This document shows, in pieces, positions 43,543-55,309 of a stretch of 59,076 nucleotides of DNA (the first letter of the stretch is position 1; every line of letters begins with the position of its first letter). The stretch spans positions 240,380 to 299,455 of the forward strand of contig MVBO01000009.1 of NCBI GenBank assembly GCA_002261195.1, given 5' to 3'. The position numbers and the translations under genes are program-made. The stretch is from Bifiguratus adelaidae (lineage: Eukaryota > Mucoromycota > Endogonomycetes > Endogonales). The notes below the pieces were generated by a model. The model did not search any database. It had not been told where the DNA came from and worked only from the letters and a program-made list of their open reading frames with translations.

Positions 43543-44520
43543 ATGCCGCAAGCATGTCTATATTCTCTTCCTCTGGAGCTCAAGACCTGGATATTTATCT
43601 ATAGTCAAACACCAGCTGTATCGTTGGTCTCGAGAAGCTTCCACCAAATATCGCAGCTCACCATTGTACGCGCTCATTATCTTGTCTACGAGTATGGCAA
43701 ACTGGAAGCCTTGTCAATGCTGGCCTCTCGCCGAACCCGCATCTTCACTGACAAGGTTGTAGAGTACCTTGTTGCTTTTGGCTGTGATGTGAGCGTTGAT
43801 TCCTGCTGGATCATTGCTCGATATGCGCATCGTCCTGCCTTACTGACCAAGCTCATCAAGAGCCTCTATTATGGCGGTAAGGCAAAAATCCTGGAGCTCC
43901 TTGGCATTGTCGACGCAACTGGAAGCACCCATTTGTTGCATATGCTAGCTCATACGTATGCCGTCAACGTCAATGTGGCCGATGAGGTGCTTCTGCGGGC
44001 CGCGTGCAAGTCCAATCGTGCCTCCGTCGTTCATTATTTGGTGAACAACACGCCATGCAACATTCACGTCTTTCATGATTTGCCTCTCTGTCTTGCCGCC
44101 CTAAACGGACATGTAGAGATTGTACAAGTACTACTCGATCATGGTGCCCACGTTCAGGCTGAGGGAAACGCGGCATTAACACTTGCAGTGATCAAGAATC
44201 ATGTCCACGTTGTGCGCCTATTGTTAACTTCTGGTGCGGATGTTCACGTGGACGCCGATAGTCCTCTTCGGCACGCCTCTGAATTCGGATACACCGAGAT
44301 TGTCCAATTGCTCCTATCCTTTGGTGCTCAACCTTCTTCTCTCAATCACGATGCACTACGTCAAGCTCTCATGAACGGGCATACGGAGGTGGTGGGAGTG
44401 TTGTTGAAGCACGGAGCGGATCCTAGAGTGTGTGTAGGCCGGTGCGCCAGAATTGCCTTGTGTAAAGGGCACGAAGAAACGTTGCAGCTGGTTCGAAAAG
44501 CCGTTCATCTTCAATCTTAG
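43543..44520 (+). CDS. Ankyrin-repeat protein with F-box-like N-terminus (paralogue 1)
   Basis: Single exon, 325 residues. The N-terminus MPQACLYSLPLELKTWIFIY with TPAVSLVSRSFHQIS has the LPxEL...xxxS(R/K) pattern of a short F-box. From about residue 115 come ankyrin repeats: LLHMLAHTYAVNVN, DLPLCLAALNGHVEIVQVLLDHGA, given in parts as LAALNGHVEIVQVLLDHGAH, SGADVHVDADSPLRHASEFG, TEIVQLLLSFGAQPS, NGHTEVVGVLLKHGADP. This combination suits a substrate adaptor of an SCF-type ubiquitin ligase, but that is inference. A paralogue of the same design lies at 47644-48834 on the opposite strand. Confidence 0.85.
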   Translation: MPQACLYSLPLELKTWIFIYSQTPAVSLVSRSFHQISQLTIVRAHYLVYEYGKLEALSMLASRRTRIFTDKVVEYLVAFGCDVSVDSCWIIARYAHRPALLTKLIKSLYYGGKAKILELLGIVDATGSTHLLHMLAHTYAVNVNVADEVLLRAACKSNRASVVHYLVNNTPCNIHVFHDLPLCLAALNGHVEIVQVLLDHGAHVQAEGNAALTLAVIKNHVHVVRLLLTSGADVHVDADSPLRHASEFGYTEIVQLLLSFGAQPSSLNHDALRQALMNGHTEVVGVLLKHGADPRVCVGRCARIALCKGHEETLQLVRKAVHLQS

Positions 44521-47643: not shown

Positions 47644-48834
47644 CTATTCTTCACATAGATTGATATCGTCTGATTCGTGGTGTTCTGAAGCATGTTCAAG
47701 CAGGAGCCGTCGCATCGCGTCGCTTCCCCGATAATTCGTCACCTGCATGATTTCATCGACCGAAAGACTGGCTCCAGCATCCAACAGAATCTTCACCACT
47801 TGTACATTTTTGGACCGTACGGCAACTTTGAGCGGTCCATTGCCTCCCTTGCAAGGATCAGCACCATGGTCAAGAAGTTTGAGCACCAGCGCTTCGTTCC
47901 CAGATTCAGCCGCGCACGCTAGAGGCAAACCTCCACCGGCGTTCGGATCCGCCTGATGACAGAGCAACAAATCAACCACATCTATATGCCCGTTCCGACA
48001 CGCGTCTCGAAGCGCCTTATAATTTTCAGCGGAGGGATCGGCTCCTCGTTCGAGCAAAAGGGCGACAATCCGTGTGTATCCATGCGAAGATGCTTGACGA
48101 AGGGGAAGATGATGACTAACGGATAGATCGGCTGAGTAATTGAGGAGCATAACGGTAATTTCATAGTAGCCCTTGTATGTACTGTTGAGCAATGCTTTTT
48201 CGTGATAGGCATGCACGTCTGCGCCCTTCTCCAGTAAGAGACGTACAAGCTCCGTATAGCCGGCTTGCGATGCCATCCGCAAAGGAAAGTCATTATCCAC
48301 ATGAATATCGCATCCATATTGAGAGGTCAGATACGACACAATCTCCACTCTGTCGTAAAGACATGCATCCCTGAGCATGCGCTCATTCTCTGCGTGCGGG
48401 TCAGCGTGATATATGTGAATCAATTTCTCCAAGAGACCCAGAGAGTCGCGTAGATTGGCAACTTCAGATAGCTCTTGTAAGTCCATACATCCAATGGCCT
48501 GCAAATGCTGTAACATGTCATCCAAGAGAGTATCATCCCTGATGTCCAATGCGTATGATATAGGATAGTGTCGGTCTACAGTCAAGTCGCAACCGAGATT
48601 CATGAGCAGTCGAATGACGTCGGGTGTCCGAATCTTGCGCAAGGTCACTTCAGCTCCCAGAGCGCGCTCCGGCCCGTAGGTCGCGTAAAGAAAGTGCGCT
48701 CGCAAGAGGTCGTGTCGAGACAAGACATAGAGTTGCCGACACGCGTAAGCTAACCCCGGAGTCTGAGCTTCGACAAAGATTCGCGTCAGCAGTTCAGTTG
48801 GTAATGAGAGGAATGTATTGCTGGACCGCTGCAT
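47644..48834 (-). CDS. Ankyrin-repeat protein with F-box-like N-terminus (paralogue 2)
   Basis: Single exon, 396 residues from ATG 48834 (MQRSSNTFLSLPTELLTRIF); the frame is open further upstream but without an ATG. The N-terminus LPTELLTRIFVEAQ with ACRQLYVLSRHDLLRAHF is F-box-like. At least seven ankyrin repeats follow, for example DNDFPLRMASQAGYTELVRL, LLEKGADVHAYHE, LLLERGADPSAENYKALRDA, NGHIDVVDLLLCHQADPNA and GNEALVLKLLDHGADP. Design and several motifs match the gene at 43543-44520 (FPLRxASxxGYTE, GADVHxxxExAL). The C-terminus is acidic (ESDDINLCEE region). Role in protein turnover is inferred only. Confidence 0.85.
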   Translation of the reverse strand: MQRSSNTFLSLPTELLTRIFVEAQTPGLAYACRQLYVLSRHDLLRAHFLYATYGPERALGAEVTLRKIRTPDVIRLLMNLGCDLTVDRHYPISYALDIRDDTLLDDMLQHLQAIGCMDLQELSEVANLRDSLGLLEKLIHIYHADPHAENERMLRDACLYDRVEIVSYLTSQYGCDIHVDNDFPLRMASQAGYTELVRLLLEKGADVHAYHEKALLNSTYKGYYEITVMLLNYSADLSVSHHLPLRQASSHGYTRIVALLLERGADPSAENYKALRDACRNGHIDVVDLLLCHQADPNAGGGLPLACAAESGNEALVLKLLDHGADPCKGGNGPLKVAVRSKNVQVVKILLDAGASLSVDEIMQVTNYRGSDAMRRLLLEHASEHHESDDINLCEE

Positions 48835-49472: not shown

Positions 49473-49670
49473 TTAGAGAAGATTGTGCATGATGTGGGCC
49501 AAGGGTGCCTTTTTGTCTCCAGACTTCTTGGAAGATTTGAAGGAGACCGTAGGCTGGCTCGAGCCATTGATCACTGACGAAGAAGATGAGGAAACCTCTG
49601 ATGTTGGGAGATGCTTGTTGCAACCTGGGGCAGTGAAGGGGGCAATTGGCATTCGAGTGATTTGCACCAT
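49473..49670 (-). CDS. Small Ser-rich protein, family copy 1 (65 aa)
   Basis: A single-exon frame of 65 residues. N-terminus MVQITRMPIAPFTAPG, a Ser-rich middle with SSSSSS, then a Lys-rich KKSGDKKAPLAHIMHNLL end. It is the most diverged of the intact copies: the PGK turn is PGC here, and the C-terminus has AHI instead of THF/TQF. The two conserved ends and the shared promoter (49772-49832) tie it to the other four copies. No signal peptide, membrane segment, Cys pairs or CaaX end are seen. I do not recognise the family. Confidence 0.7.
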   Translation of the reverse strand: MVQITRMPIAPFTAPGCNKHLPTSEVSSSSSSVINGSSQPTVSFKSSKKSGDKKAPLAHIMHNLL

Positions 49671-49771
49671 TGTGAGTGACTTTGGAGTAAGTAAGCTTGA
49701 GTTGCTTGAGTGTTTGTGAGTGAGAAGATGTTTTTGATTTTCAATGCTCTACATCGTCCGAAGGTCGCACT

Positions 49772-49832
49772 CTTTTATAGACAATGCTGACAATATCCAA
49801 GCCGATGCCAAGGCGCGCAAAATTTTGATTGG
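49772..49832 (-). promoter_or_regulatory. Family promoter of copy 1
   Basis: Read on the minus strand: CCAAT at 49828-49832, then an element at about 49787-49818 containing GCCTTGGCATCGGCTTGG and TCAGCA, then TATAAAAG at 49772-49779, about 105 nt before the ATG. It is the weakest match of the five but keeps order and spacing. Confidence 0.65.
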
Positions 49833-50597
49833 TTCGTGGAATTGTCCAAATCGGAGGCTGCGGACGTAAACACATGCACACCGGAAATTTCGGCATCCCA
49901 TAAGAGACATTGGTTGTGGCTGATGATGCTGCGCGGTTTTTGCTCTTCCGGAGGTTTGCACCTCGTGCGGAGGTGTGTCTGTTGTCATAGGGCATTGAGA
50001 TTTCGTGTTGACTCGTAGATCAAACTCGGCAGATTTCGACATGTTTCGATGAACGAGTGATTCAAGATCTCTATGCGAGGCCCTGTGAGATGCATCGGTG
50101 CCTTCGGATGACGCAGCACGGACATTACTCAGCGTCGTGGCGGCCAATGGCCCTCCCAAAAATCCTTGTACGCCCATACCAGCAATTTCAAGCAGGACCT
50201 AGAAAATTCCTCGCCAGCTTACGATCATTAAGCACAGGCCACGTCAAATCCCAAAATAACCTTTGCCACTGACAATGCCGTTTACTCGGTGATTAACCTG
50301 TCATAGCAGCTAATTGGTCATTGACCGGGATCGTTGGCAGCAGGTCATTTTCCGTGCCTGCGGGGATAGGCTGTACCGATGTGGCAAACACAGTTGTTTT
50401 GGTAAGAATTTTTGCGGACGGTCGGTGGCTCAGAAGCAGATCAATAGTTAGAGTAGTATGGGTGAGGATCAAATGGTGCCATGTATGATATGAAGATTGA
50501 ATGATTGTCATATATACAATAATGCTCACAGTACATCGAACAAGACTAAAAAATAGAGACGGGAATGGGAATTGCGAGAGGTTGATTGATGTCTTCT
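49833..50597. other. Spacer between copy 1 promoter and copy 2
   Basis: About 760 bp. A minus-strand frame reaching 50177 overlaps the copy 1 promoter and has no family features; I regard it as chance. No other feature is seen. Confidence 0.35.
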
Positions 50598-50801
50598 TCA
50601 GAGAAGATTGTGCATGAAATGAGTGACAGGCGACTTCTTACTCGATGCCTTGCTGGAGAGGGATTGGATCGACATGGACGATCGGTTTGAAGCACTGGTA
50701 ATAGAAGGCGCAGTTGAAGAGGGAGTGCTTGTACTGGCGCGTTTGGAAGCCTTGCCAGGGACAGAGTAAGGAGCCATTGGGATACGTATGATTTGGACCA
50801 T
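50598..50801 (-). CDS. Small Ser-rich protein, family copy 2 (67 aa)
   Basis: A single-exon 67-residue protein. N-terminus MVQIIRIPMAPYSVPGKASK, a Ser/Thr-rich middle, then SSKASSKKSPVTHFMHNLL. It is the closest relative of copy 3. Over the last 20 codons, copies 2 and 3 differ at four silent third positions and two amino-acid changes (Leu/Val, His/Gln), which points to selection on the protein. Basic and Ser-rich composition suggests an intrinsically disordered, possibly phosphorylated or nucleic-acid-associated protein, but function is unknown. Transcribed divergently from copy 3. Confidence 0.78.
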   Translation of the reverse strand: MVQIIRIPMAPYSVPGKASKRASTSTPSSTAPSITSASNRSSMSIQSLSSKASSKKSPVTHFMHNLL

Positions 50802-50936
50802 TGTTAGAGGAGAATCAAGAAGTTTGCTTGCAGACTTGTGATTGGGTATAGCTTTTGCTTGTAAGATCGCTGATCTGAGTATTGCTTGCTTTGAAAGCTT
50901 GCTTGTCGATGCAGATTAGCGTCGAGACTTCGGTCC

Positions 50937-51016
50937 CTTTTATACATTAAGTCGTGCCATGTTGCCAAAAATTACCAAGCAACGCCAAGATGCCTAGCAC
51001 GAATCTGATTGGCCAA
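50937..51016 (-). promoter_or_regulatory. Family promoter of copy 2
   Basis: Read on the minus strand: CCAAT at about 51008-51012, GCTAGGCATCTTGGCGTTG followed by CTTGGTAATTTTTGGCAAC within 50961-50998, then TATAAAAG at 50937-50944. A leader motif (AAGCAAGCTTTCAAAGCAA) lies at 50885-50905. Confidence 0.78.
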
Positions 51017-51060
51017 TTTAAGTGGCTGGACTGACTGGAGTCGCACAGCGGAAAATGCTG

Positions 51061-51330
51061 TGGAGGACAGGTACTTCCTCACTCTGGGCATCAGTTAGCC
51101 GCTGCAGTCGGGCAGAGGCGCAGTCAATTTGTTCCATTTGCGCACATACGCAACAACATCCGCCGCGGTTCCACTTTTGCGCATTCTGGTAGAGGATGTA
51201 AAGGAACGCACCTCCCCTCTTACCTGATCCTCTGACTGGAGCCATAGTCCTTCACATCACAAAATTCAGCATGTTCTCCGCAAATCATGACGTAAAGTAT
51301 GCGAAGGATTTGGGAGATCGCCGCAGTTAC
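51061..51330. repeat. Duplicated intergenic block A (between copies 2 and 3)
   Basis: Blocks shared in order with 54190-54456: CTCTGGGCAT plus a GCAGT...GGGCAGAG segment at about 51080-51118, TGACGTA at 51288-51294 and GATCGCCGCAGTT at 51316-51328. The first block lies 78 bp from the copy 2 element; the equivalent distance at copy 4 is 76 bp. Confidence 0.7.
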
Positions 51331-51367
51331 CGTCGATCCCGGGCTTCGGATTGAGGAATAATTACAG

Positions 51368-51446
51368 CCAATAAATAAGATTAGCTGGGCATCTTGGCGT
51401 TGGCTTGGAATTATTCAGCAATATTGGCGCGACGCAAGGTATATTA
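51368..51446 (+). promoter_or_regulatory. Family promoter of copy 3
   Basis: CCAAT at 51368-51372, then at 51384-51422 GCTGGGCATCTTGGCGTTG and GCTTGGAATTATTCAGCAA, then TATATTA at 51440-51446, about 140 nt before the ATG at 51584. The leader carries two copies of a CTCxCAAAGCAA-like motif (about 51484 and 51547). Confidence 0.78.
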
Positions 51447-51583
51447 GGAAGCGTCCATTTGACTTGGATCTACATCAAACAATCAAGCTCGCAAAGCAAG
51501 CAAGCAAATACTCCTATCTCACAAGCACGCACCCTACACTGCACCTAGCTCTCAAAGCAAATTCTCCTTGCGCAAATTATAAG

Positions 51584-51787
51584 ATGGTTCAAATTATCCG
51601 CGTCCCATTGGTTCCTTACGCCGTCCCTGGCAAGACTTCCAAGCGCACAAGCACAAGCACCGCTTCCTCAGCTGCCACTTCCGTGACCATGGGCTCAAAC
51701 CGATCGTCCAAGTCGATCCAATCCGTGTCCAGCAAGGCATCGAGCAAGAAATCGCCGGTCACTCAGTTCATGCACAATCTCCTCTGA
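51584..51787 (+). CDS. Small Ser-rich protein, family copy 3 (67 aa)
   Basis: A single-exon 67-residue protein. N-terminus MVQIIRVPLVPYAVPGKTSK, Ser/Thr-rich middle, C-terminus SSKASSKKSPVTQFMHNLL. The frame is open upstream of the ATG, but that part lacks ATG and lies in the leader. It is divergent from copy 2 with 782 bp between the start codons. No known domain. Compared with copy 2, the first 21 codons carry five silent and five conservative changes. Confidence 0.78.
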   Translation: MVQIIRVPLVPYAVPGKTSKRTSTSTASSAATSVTMGSNRSSKSIQSVSSKASSKKSPVTQFMHNLL

Positions 51788-51947
51788 CGCTCGGAAGTTA
51801 GCCTGTATATAACCACACTATCTTTCGATAGACGTGCATCAATGTATTTAAAGTGACATTCAGTGAGCCTACATAGTATTTCCCATGCGTTTGACATGCT
51901 CTTTCACACTCTCCCTAGTACGACTAACACTTGCATCAGACATTTAC

Positions 51948-52030
51948 GTAACACTAGCAACACTGCCTTTGGAGACTGCACGGTATGCTTCGGCAATGTC
52001 TTCTGTGTGGTCTCTCAAGGGAGAAATCAT
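51948..52030 (-). pseudogene. Orphan first exon of a short-chain dehydrogenase
   Basis: Read on the minus strand, ATG at 52030 opens MISPLRDHTEDIAEAYRAVS and continues KGSVASVT up to a GTAAAT donor-like site. It aligns residue by residue with the first exon of the nearby dehydrogenase pseudogene (LETTAEDVAKAYGVDLKGK then VATVT, also ending at a GTA donor). No second exon follows downstream before copy 3. It is a relic of a second dehydrogenase copy. Confidence 0.65.
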
Positions 52031-52316
52031 TCAATGGTAATGCTGAATGAGAAAGCTAATGTAATGCGTAAAAGTCAAATATTTGAAAACGAAGTGCTTG
52101 TAAGCCTGAATTGATTTAGTGTCATGCTTTCCTAGAATTGCCTTGCTTCTGATATTTCATGATTAAATCGAGAGACTTTCGCCCTCCAGGGCACAACGGG
52201 CACATGTTACTGGGAAGAGATTAAGCGTTTGGAACCATGTCCTTACCAAATTGTACTTTTCTCGTTATTCCTTCTTATTCAAAAAAGGTACATCGTGGTG
52301 CTCAATTGTCACTATC

Positions 52317-53335
52317 TCAAGCCAAGCCAACCATCTGCTCAGACACTTGCCACAACTTCTTGGCTACTTGCTGGTCGTTTGTGAGTTCATGAACGATTTG
52401 TAACGTTCGGTACATTATTGCAATAAAATTGACATTTGACAACATCCGGTGACTGTGCGTAGTATATACTGGTAGATGCACCTTGTGGGACAGTCTTGAT
52501 GTGCGCGATGTCTCAAAGTGGCCTCCCCAGAATCTCTTGTCGCACAAATCATGTCCATCACACCCTTGATGCCCATGTTTTGTTGCAAATTAGTCTGAAT
52601 GACACCTGGATGAGGACTCATCACCTTCACATCGGCGCCTTCAGCGACAAAGCGACGTTGCAATTCTTTGGCGTGCAAATATTGGCAAGCTCCGATTGAC
52701 CATAGTTTCTGAAGGATTGGTAACTCTTGTCGACCTGTAAGTCGTCAAAGTCGTTGCCGGTAGGAGGACGCAAAAACTTTGCAGCGCTGACAGTGACGAC
52801 ACGGGAAGGTGCGCACTCGGATTCAATTGATCCGTTAGGAGGCTCACGAGAAGAAAATGACCGAGGTGGTTGACGCCAAACTGAGTTTCGGAACCGTCTT
52901 TGGTGTGCGATCGTGTACAGGCCATGTTACCGTCATATATTGATCAGAATATGGAGAGGTAGATTAAGGTCAAGGAACGCTTTTGCGAATGCTCGCACTG
53001 AAGACAGGCCGCTCAGATCCAATTGCATCGGGATCAAATCGGCTCCAGGCACAGTCTTCTTGATCTCTTCAATAGCATCTTCTGCCTTTGCTATAATGCG
53101 ACAAGAAAGGATAACCTTGGCATGGCTCAAGGCCAGTACTCCAGACGTTTCCTAGTCGATAACAGGGTTGGAGCCGCTAATATAAACGGCCAAGAAGAAG
53201 TACCGCTAGCTTGGGAGAAGACACCTACGTGACAGTGGCAACTTTGCCTTTCAAGTCTACTCCGTATGCTTTGGCAACATCTTCTGCTGTGGTTTCCAAG
53301 TGTATGCCATTGGAGATGACCTGATGGGAGAAGCT
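52317..53335 (-). pseudogene. Decayed short-chain dehydrogenase/reductase (retinol dehydrogenase-like)
   Basis: Pieces of one SDR gene occur in order but in different frames. They are an N-terminal AEDVAKAYGVDLKGKVATVT, SGVLALSHAKVILSCRIIAK, LIPMQLDLSGLSSVRAFAKA, TQFGVNHLGHFLLVSLLTDQ, APSRVVTV, SYQSFRNYGQSELANI, LQRRFVAEGADVKVMSPHPG, a KTVPQGASTSIYYAQSPDVV piece and the terminal NDQQVAKKLWQVSEQMVGLA. The Rossmann glycine motif is ruined: it reads GSNPVID, then a stop, then ETSG. At least five frame changes and two in-frame stops are needed to follow the alignment. Family members oxidise or reduce retinol-like or steroid-like alcohols with NAD(P)H. This copy cannot make an active enzyme. A TATA-like box remains near 53350. 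Confidence 0.85.
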
Positions 53336-53770
53336 AGAATCGTCGCTTTATATGTTCGTGATTCGACCGCTCTAGCCGACAATTTTCGCTGTTTTCGTCC
53401 GCTCACCGCGTCTCTTGTCGCCGGCGGAACGACGGCGGATCAGAGCGTCGGCGGGCTTGGGGCTGACAAATGAGTGGGGGTCCCTCTTGTAACGATTGCT
53501 GCTTTCGCATAATCAACCTAAGTTACATGATCGAACGACTCGTTACCGCCGCCAGCAACCCTGCAGCATATTTTGGGTTATGCGTCTCTATCGGACACCG
53601 ACCATAGATCCTATGCTTAAACAGTAACAGAGAGGATTCGCACAGAAAGAAACTCGATATCGCTTTGTATTAAGACGAATGAATATCATTTATGTACATT
53701 GATATGAGAATCTATCAGATGGTAGGGTGTACATGAGCAAACTGCAAAGGAGATATTGCGGATCCGACTT
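53336..53770. other. Spacer upstream of the dehydrogenase pseudogene
   Basis: A GC-rich stretch of CG-repeats and short inverted words at about 53395-53465 probably was the promoter of the dehydrogenase. No coding feature is supported. Confidence 0.35.
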
Positions 53771-53974
53771 TCAGAGAAGGTTATGCATGAACTGAGTAAC
53801 TGGTGCTTTCTGACAAGATGCCTTGCTCGAGGAGGACTTGCCCGAGATGGAGGAGTGGCTTGATACACCGGTAACAGAGGAGGCTGTAGAAGAGGAAGTG
53901 CTTGCACTTGCGCGCCTGTGAGCTTTGCCAGGGACGGAGTATGATACAATTTGCACGCGTGTGATTTGAACCAT
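53771..53974 (-). CDS. Small Ser-rich protein, family copy 4 (67 aa)
   Basis: A single-exon 67-residue protein. N-terminus MVQITRVQIVSYSVPGKAHR, a Ser-rich middle, C-terminus SSKASCQKAPVTQFMHNLL. It keeps both conserved ends and the exact length of copies 2 and 3. It has one Cys near the C-terminus where the others have Ser. Transcribed divergently from copy 5. Confidence 0.77.
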   Translation of the reverse strand: MVQITRVQIVSYSVPGKAHRRASASTSSSTASSVTGVSSHSSISGKSSSSKASCQKAPVTQFMHNLL

Positions 53975-54072
53975 TGTAACAGGTGAAGAGTATCGATTAG
54001 ATTTAGACAATTGTATGAAGCGTTCGTTTGAAAGCTTGCTGATGATGTGAATGTAAACCGAAACGTCGCGAG

Positions 54073-54150
54073 CCTTTATACATTGTGCTGCGCTAATGGT
54101 GCCGAAAATTTCCAAGCAACGCCAAGATGCCTAGCTAATTTTTAGTTGGC
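54073..54150 (-). promoter_or_regulatory. Family promoter of copy 4
   Basis: Read on the minus strand: GCCAACTAAAA (a degenerate CCAAT position) near 54145, GCTAGGCATCTTGGCGTTG then CTTGGAAATTTTCGGCAC within 54101-54135, then TATAAAGG at 54073-54080. The leader motif (CAGCAAGCTTTCAAACGAA) is at 54021-54041. Confidence 0.75.
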
Positions 54151-54189
54151 TGAGGGGGTGAGGGTCGGAAACGGCGCGGGCAGAAAGAT

Positions 54190-54456
54190 GTCGGCGGGTA
54201 AGCACCCTTTGCTCTGGGCATACGTGAGTTGCAGTTCGGCAGAGCTTTAATACAGCTTGTCCTGGTCTAACGATGGCATCTGATGAGTCTGGTGAGCCAG
54301 TAAGTGTCAAGATTTGCCCGAATGCAATTAACTGTTGCGCTCTTTACACCTAAATTGCTAAGGTCGTACTGATCCATCGGCTTGCAGCTATTAGCTCGAT
54401 ATTACATGACGTACATATGGCAAGAGAAACCGAGCGTACAACAGATCGCCGCAGTT
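54190..54456. repeat. Duplicated intergenic block B (between copies 4 and 5)
   Basis: Colinear counterpart of block A at 51061-51330: CTCTGGGCAT with a GCAGTTCGGCAGAG segment at about 54211-54245, TGACGTA at 54407-54413 and GATCGCCGCAGTT at 54444-54456. Confidence 0.7.
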
Positions 54457-54491
54457 GCCGTGAAATCCCAGGCTGGGATTCATAATTTCAG

Positions 54492-54569
54492 CCAATCAAA
54501 TTTAAGCTAGGCGTCTTGGCTTTGGCTTGGAATAATTCGGCAACGTTAGCACAATAGAATGTATGTAAG
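54492..54569 (+). promoter_or_regulatory. Family promoter of copy 5
   Basis: CCAATCAAA at 54492-54500, GCTAGGCGTCTTGGC and GGCTTGGAATAATTCGGCAA within 54506-54543, and a weak TATA position reading GTATGTAAG at 54561-54569. The leader motif (AAGCGAGCTCTCAAAGCAA) is at 54592-54610. Confidence 0.75.
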
Positions 54570-54695
54570 AAAGCAAAGTATCCACATTAACAAGCGAGCT
54601 CTCAAAGCAAATAGTACTCTAATCTCAACGGGCCCAAGCGTAAGCTTCCTACAATCCCAAGCTCTCTGGCGTTTCAAAATCTCAACCAGCTTACG

Positions 54696-54878
54696 ATGGT
54701 TCACATTACCCGCATCCAGGTTGTTCCCTACTCTGGTCCTGGCAAGATCCATAAACGCGTCAGCACAAGCACTACCTTTTCAGCCAGACCTTCCAATACA
54801 AGTGGATCAGGCCGTTCCTCTATCTGGAGCAAGTCATCGGTCAAGGGGACATTGCCGGTCATTCATAGCATGCACTAA
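54696..54878 (+). CDS. Small Ser-rich protein, family copy 5 (60 aa, shortened C-terminus)
   Basis: A 60-residue frame. N-terminus MVHITRIQVVPYSGPGKIHK, a shorter Ser-rich middle with GSGRSSIWSKSS, and an end LPVIHSMH. The stop comes straight after MH, so the NLL of the other copies is absent. The promoter is intact except for a weaker TATA box. It may be a diverged functional copy or an early pseudogene. Confidence 0.6.
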   Translation: MVHITRIQVVPYSGPGKIHKRVSTSTTFSARPSNTSGSGRSSIWSKSSVKGTLPVIHSMH

Positions 54879-55309
54879 CGCGAATGAGCGCACCAGCCGA
54901 TCTTTTTTCGCTTTTTCTACTTACGCTGTACACTATTTCATTCATTTTAAATACCACGTGATAGGAACCAATGGCTCGATTGAGCATCTTGTCACACCCA
55001 CAGCAAAGCCCTAATGTTCTTCAAAGCCCTGCACGTGGACAACCTGCGAACTCTGATTGGTTAGAATAAGCCCTGAATATCCGTATATGAAGATTACCGA
55101 CGATCCTGCAAAAGAACACCATTCTGCGCAGAATCTTGTCTCACTCTCTTTTACTTTTGGCGCTTACTCCTTTATCCCTCCCCTTTCCGCTCTCTTTAAA
55201 TATCTAGCAGTTCTCATTTCTCGAGAACTGCAATATATCATACAATCTGGACAAGGCACATTTGTTACGACCGATATCGCCTGTTTCACCTCGGGTTTTC
55301 ACACCCAAC

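Follow-up and report, generated by a model that had tools for sequence, protein, structure and literature searches.

Five short open reading frames (ORFs) of 60-67 codons within positions 49473-54878 of a 59,076-nucleotide stretch of the Bifiguratus adelaidae genome (MVBO01000009.1, bases 240380-299455, from an assembly of 18.6 Mb; hereafter the window) are shown here to be real protein genes under purifying selection. The species is placed in the Mucoromycota, Endogonales incertae sedis. The five ORFs form one family, as the initial annotation had proposed on less evidence than is now at hand, and every copy carries the same compound promoter element. We read them tentatively, at rather less than an even chance, as a lineage-specific and co-regulated family of disordered cationic proteins that would be switched by the ambient-pH factor PacC/Rim101 and would act as cationic binders. 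The locus is a clean case of an orphan, apparently unannotated gene family in which comparison among the paralogues suffices to establish coding status from a single genome.

The five genes are under purifying selection

The ratio of non-synonymous to synonymous substitution (dN/dS, Nei-Gojobori) over the whole frame is 0.21-0.43 in eight of the ten pairs; saturation of dS leaves it not computable for pairs 1-4 and 1-5. None of the computable values is near 1, in keeping with the earlier proposal that the frames encode real proteins. When the observed substitutions were redistributed randomly among sites that share the original base, amino-acid changes were fewer than expected in all ten pairs (P = 0.0000-0.0056; the pairs are not independent), and such placement created a stop codon in 46-85% of trials. 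For pairs 2-3, 2-4 and 3-4 the proposed frame gave P <= 0.0024 and the other two forward frames P = 0.86-0.9997, with a weak echo in one antisense frame (P = 0.018-0.079). All gaps among the copies are in-frame. Local similarity of copies 2 and 3 (50598-51010 against 51787-51374, 73%) sets in precisely at the stop codons and continues through the coding region into promoter sequence; in other pairs the local matches overrun the stop codon by 1 to 8 bases. That the frames are chance ORFs within a repeated stretch of non-coding promoter DNA, as the lack of homologues in protein searches and the absence of the copies from the B. adelaidae proteins of the database might suggest, is rejected by the dN/dS, placement and frame tests and, given also the in-frame gaps and a 2-3 homology ending at the stop codon, is very unlikely.

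Sixteen of the 67 columns in the five-copy alignment are invariant. The conserved N-terminal block reads MVQI-R-P-PY-VPGK; the C-terminus is MHNLL in four copies and copy 5 stops after MH, the shortening having been recognized in the initial annotation. Purifying selection had been claimed there for both ends, with a free middle. The segment-wise placement test, applied to four of the ten pairs, supports the claim for the C-terminal block (significant in 4/4 pairs, P = 0.0002-0.024) and does so in only one of the four for the N-terminal block (P = 0.028), where the constraint is, by this test alone, suggestive. The C-terminus of copy 5 is an exception: its dN/dS against copy 3 is 1.29, which argues against constraint in that copy. 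The middle, which is Ser/Thr-rich and more relaxed than the ends, is not free, since all eight computable pairs give it a dN/dS below 1; in the placement test it was significant in one of the four pairs (P = 0.0026). The substitution counts first given for copies 2 and 3 were about right, at four silent and two replacement changes towards the C-terminus and five of each towards the N-terminus, compared with Nei-Gojobori values of 5.0 and 2.0 (columns 48-67) and of 7 and 6 (columns 1-22).

The family seems to be an orphan within what was searched, namely annotated proteins and its own genome. A whole-genome protein search with copy 3 as the sole one of the five used as query returned, at E <= 10, exactly five places, all in this cluster, and a dispersed repeat or mobile element is rejected on this ground. 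No sixth copy was found in the window by tblastn with the five proteins, the best extra matches being Ser-rich stretches with E values of 0.005 at best. Searched against about 5.8 billion proteins, the five-copy alignment yielded 224 candidates and no relative at E <= 1; such searches depend on shared short words and on annotated proteins, and the fungal DNA covered was that of B. adelaidae itself. When the frame of copy 3, extended upstream, was searched against the protein database, 18 candidates came up, none at E <= 10. As this database includes B. adelaidae proteins and none matched, the copies seem to lack an annotation of roughly matching length in it; gene models of greater length (about 78-247 residues) were sought with copy 3 only.

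Scans of all five members found nothing above the cut-off in Pfam, where the best match was the sub-threshold M-factor family PF03855, and nothing at E <= 1 in NCBIfam, so that the absence of a known domain is upheld. A viral and a prokaryotic origin were both rejected, as 16 pattern-matched stretches in viral contigs and 18 in prokaryote genome contigs gave no confirmed relative. Likeness to solved structures was likewise rejected: there were two matches, the best (E = 1.9) to an intimin over a Ser-rich stretch, and these were judged to be chance. By title, none of the papers found for B. adelaidae deals with these genes.

A shared promoter element and its candidate factor

Neither a promoter element common to the copies, nor their head-to-head pairing, nor the duplication of a pair figured in the initial annotation. 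Each of the five genes has one tandem CTTGGC-N(3-4)-GCTTGG element, always in the same orientation relative to the start (Table 1). The promoters are ordered as a CCAAT box, 15-20 base pairs (bp), the tandem element, 17-31 bp and a TATA box, the start of which lies 106-144 bp from the ATG; the CCAAT and the TATA box are each present in four of the five. The strict pattern CCAAGCN{2,5}GCCAAGNNGCC matches four times in 18.6 Mb, in the promoters of copies 2-5 and nowhere else, and its reversed control does not match at all. The looser pattern CCAAGCN{3,4}GCCAAG has 23 matches in the genome, five of them in the cluster at one per promoter; its reversed control has three. Among the 18 matches outside the cluster, none has a CCAAT within 45 bp upstream or a TATA within 70 bp downstream.

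Because the paralogues keep one compound element, the strict form of which is private to them, the copies are very probably expressed together, and regulation is the best-supported part of the mechanism that we propose. The orphan genes are in this way tied to a specific regulatory code. The idea of a dedicated small-protein system, put forward at the outset, is reasonable for a family without a known domain and with dedicated promoters. The accompanying idea of multiple strong promoters stands as far as the clear shared architecture is concerned; the word 'strong' is to be toned down, codon adaptation being no more than mildly raised, in copies 1-3.

Read on its reverse strand, the element is CCAAGC-N(3-4)-GCCAAG, with CCAAG repeats 10 or 11 bp apart, and GCCAAG occurs in it in all five promoters. 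Passages in two papers name GCCAAG as a potential Rim101 site (PMC2824755, citing the S. cerevisiae, C. albicans and A. nidulans orthologues; PMC8304098). A PacC-type zinc-finger probe had 46 matches in the genome, of which the best lies on contig C119 and the 45 others are weaker and more general. The finger sequence on C119 includes KRPQDLKKH and continues after a probable intron with ICNKSFKRPQDLKKHEKTH, which we take to be the PacC finger signature, and the genome reads as encoding a PacC-type zinc-finger protein. Our assessment is that PacC is a serious candidate, if still short of an even chance, for the factor acting on the tandem element. Like PacC/Rim101 target promoters, those described here have GCCAAG sites upstream and a PacC-type factor in the same genome; they differ in that their two CCAAG repeats form a fixed tandem with a spacing of one helical turn, in most cases flanked by a CCAAT and a TATA box.

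The alternative to be taken most seriously, which we also put at rather less than an even chance, accepts the genes as real and co-regulated and assigns their control to some factor besides PacC, perhaps an unknown zinc-finger protein or an NF-1-like protein reading TTGGC; the trigger would then not be pH and could be spore formation, a nutrient or root contact. In its favour, conservation extends over a block that exceeds two GCCAAG hexamers in length, GCCAAG is frequent in the window as a single site and C2H2 proteins are numerous in the genome, to judge by the matches to the probe. It has to contend with the presence of a PacC-type factor in the genome and with CCAAG repeats whose spacing of one helical turn suits two copies of such a factor. 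No literature joining PacC, GCCAAG and Mucor was found; among the matches listed for Mucoromycota and PacC none is, by title, on this subject, and none of those listed for orphan genes and PacC names Bifiguratus.

Table 1. Positions, in the window, of the five genes, their promoter features and the two pair blocks
Feature	Positions	Strand	Remarks
Copy 1	49473..49670	-	65 residues; most diverged; without [KR][KR]x[ST]; holds the family's only two acidic residues
Copy 2	50598..50801	-	67 residues; head-to-head with copy 3
Copy 3	51584..51787	+	67 residues; 78% amino-acid identity to copy 2
Copy 4	53771..53974	-	67 residues; head-to-head with copy 5
Copy 5	54696..54878	+	60 residues; shortened C-terminus ending MH
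Tandem element, copy 1	49797..49812	-	CTTGGCATCGGCTTGG in gene orientation, -142
Tandem element, copy 2	50975..50989	-	CTTGGCGTTGCTTGG, -188
Tandem element, copy 3	51393..51408	+	CTTGGCGTTGGCTTGG, -191
Tandem element, copy 4	54112..54126	-	CTTGGCGTTGCTTGG, -152
Tandem element, copy 5	54515..54530	+	CTTGGCTTTGGCTTGG, -181
CCAAT box, copy 1	49828..49832	-	15 bp upstream of element
CCAAT box, copy 2	51008..51012	-	18 bp upstream of element
CCAAT box, copy 3	51368..51372	+	20 bp upstream of element
CCAAT position, copy 4	54145..54149	-	reads CCAAC; altered box
CCAAT box, copy 5	54492..54496	+	18 bp upstream of element
TATA box, copy 1	49774..49779	-	TATAAA
TATA box, copy 2	50939..50944	-	TATAAA
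TATA box, copy 3	51440..51445	+	TATATT
TATA box, copy 4	54075..54080	-	TATAAA
TATA position, copy 5	54562..54567	+	reads TATGTA; altered box
Pair block A (copies 2 and 3)	50597..51775	+	61% identical over 1219 columns, collinear with block B
Pair block B (copies 4 and 5)	53770..54875	+	collinear with block A

Protein properties and proposed mechanism

The five proteins are of 6.5-7.1 kDa, with an isoelectric point (pI) of 10-12 and a net charge of +5 to +9. Copies 2-5 contain no Asp or Glu. Each protein has 17-24 Ser and Thr residues and at most one Cys, and only 7-9 of the 60-67 residues are Lys or Arg. The C-terminal half is Lys/Ser-rich, with SKKSP in copies 2 and 3. AlphaFold2 models of copies 1 and 3 have mean predicted local distance difference test (pLDDT) values of 59.8 and 59.9 and predicted template modelling (pTM) scores of 0.16 and 0.15, respectively; DSSP assigned nothing in either, and the most confident block is the first ten residues (76 and 69). 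The proteins are predicted from such models to be mostly disordered. A [KR][KR]x[ST] site, the protein-kinase-A-like consensus, occupies residues 20-23 in copies 2-5, and a site anywhere in at least four of the five sequences arose in 0.014 of shuffles. By eye, which was also the basis of the initial annotation's statement that a signal peptide is lacking, there is no hydrophobic core of the signal-peptide kind and no CaaX box, and the proteins are probably intracellular.

Codon adaptation is mildly above background in copies 1-3 (P = 0.007-0.038), with P = 0.11 for copies 4 and 5, and would fit moderate expression together with a weakening of these last two. The reference comprised six loci (two H3, two H2A, one H2B and one EF-1alpha-like) and the background two EF-G-like genes, one eRF3-like by eye and nine window genes, with one partial H3 left out; apart from the window genes, the set was drawn from 10 loci, other histone and GTP_EFTU matches being unused. 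By eye, the elongation-factor gene of the reference reads as EF-1alpha-like (EFL) rather than canonical EF-1alpha.

Although new to our searches, the family belongs to a kind that has precedent, the lineage-specific multi-copy small-gene family. With such families it shares short genes, a single locus, purifying selection and the lack of homologues found; it differs in its head-to-head pairs in collinear blocks and in that each gene retains one tandem element, the strict form of which is confined to this cluster within the genome. In physical terms the proteins resemble small disordered cationic Ser-rich proteins in their high pI, Ser/Thr content and absence of a predicted fold, whereas their conserved N-terminal block and MHNLL match no searched family.

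The initial annotation suggested a regulatory or nucleic-acid- or membrane-binding role, which the pI and predicted disorder permit and do not show. Nucleic-acid-binding or chromatin-condensing cationic proteins, for example in conidia, would account for the high pI, the lack of acidic residues in four of the five and the Lys/Ser-rich C-terminal half with SKKSP in two copies. We consider this unlikely, as the Lys and Arg content is far below that of protamines, no protamine-like composition being found in any copy, and the most conserved ends (MVQI-R and MHNLL) are not the basic parts.

Extracellular cationic peptides, antimicrobial or signalling and released by an unconventional route or by cell lysis, are suggested by the small, basic and multi-copy character of the family. 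The M-factor precursors of S. pombe are also encoded by small multi-copy genes. The likeness to M-factor is confined to the Ser-rich stretch of one of the five members (E = 0.034, 14.7 bits against a cut-off of 25) and lies in the Ser-rich middle, outside the conserved ends. The C-terminal CaaX of a farnesylated pheromone is absent, the ends being MHNLL or MH, as had been noted at the outset. Neither Cys pairs, again as first reported, nor a hydrophobin or Cys-rich secreted framework was found among sequences with so few Cys. Together with the lack of a signal-peptide-like core these observations make an extracellular role quite unlikely.

The PacC-switched, intracellular family is the reading that we prefer. 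PacC/Rim101 would bind the tandem element through the GCCAAG on its reverse strand and the repeated CCAAG, and ambient pH, or a stress linked to it, would switch the copies in concert. More speculatively, the proteins might serve as dosage-dependent cationic binders that dock through short motifs at the conserved N- and C-terminal ends, with the Ser-rich middle as a spacer open to phosphorylation and with charge, or binding to an anionic partner, tuned by the [KR]RxS site of four members; this is the weak step, since the action is deduced from the make-up of the proteins. A bolder version, which we regard as improbable, sees them as a new class of pH-switched, multi-copy 'charge buffer' or docking microproteins confined to one early-diverging fungal lineage, with a genome-rare tandem PacC-type promoter code and tuning by phosphorylation at the [KR]RxS site of four members, turning an alkaline signal directly into a pulse of disordered cationic protein. 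If the PacC link is true, the cluster would give the ambient-pH pathway of an Endogonales fungus a defined output and provide a handle on the roles of orphan microproteins in early-diverging fungi.

Several points weigh against this preferred reading. The CCAAT box of copy 4 and the TATA box of copy 5 are altered, and the looser pattern matches 18 times outside the cluster, compared with three matches for the reversed control, which means that these genes are not the only ones to have the tandem as such. Both patterns were written after viewing these promoters. Paralogous promoters share descent, and the conservation of the element is therefore partly inherited. GCCAAG occurs 67 times in the window, against 31 expected from dinucleotide shuffles, which makes the hexamer match weak; Ala-Lys codon use may be the cause of the excess. 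The PacC probe matches mostly other C2H2 proteins, and its best match lies near the end of the contig and is split by the probable intron. A probe for the PalH/Rim21 sensor gave no match, a result without weight because its control was likewise silent. As to the proteins, disorder was predicted from models based on five sequences, copy 1 lacks the kinase-like site and the motif for that site was picked after viewing the sequences.

History of the locus and neighbouring genes

Copies 2 and 3 and copies 4 and 5 form head-to-head pairs in two collinear blocks, and copy 1 is a single, more distant copy. An inverted duplication at one locus would have given a head-to-head pair that was then copied at the same locus. 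Duplication of a block leads one to expect copies 2 and 4 and copies 3 and 5 as sister pairs, and here the coding sequence disagrees, the closest pair being copies 2 and 3 (82% nucleotide identity). The block history is in accord with the spacer of the promoter element, which has four bases in copies 1, 3 and 5 and three in copies 2 and 4. Promoter identity around the element disfavours it, as copies 3 and 4 are closest (0.79, compared with 0.72 for 2-4 and 0.75 for 3-5). Gene conversion between the inverted arms is a possible reading of these conflicting identities.

Adjoining the cluster is a phosphate:H+ symporter gene, with an open frame of 483 residues that is 100% identical to part of BZG36_00955 (567 residues, B. 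adelaidae). Two CACGTG boxes 77 bp apart (54955-54960 and 55032-55037) lie upstream of this gene, as under Pho4-type control, though the hexamer occurs in the window at chance frequency (15, with 15.5 expected). Phosphate control of the cluster through the symporter was rejected, as none of the five upstream stretches of 450 bp contains CACGTG.

No RNA families at the gathering score and no tRNAs were found in the window, and a search for 5S rRNA as a landmark gave no match. To the left of the cluster are two ankyrin-repeat genes (43543-44520 on the forward strand and 47644-48834 on the reverse strand), the N-termini of which look F-box-like by eye; Pfam gives no F-box match. Between copies 3 and 4 there are gene pieces in several frames (52415-53347 on the reverse strand, and also 51917-52019). 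They look like the remains of a broken short-chain dehydrogenase-like gene, and the one ORF of these pieces that was scanned (52641-52925) has no Pfam match. Part of the 5' region of this dehydrogenase-like gene is repeated as a 73% direct copy adjoining copy 3.

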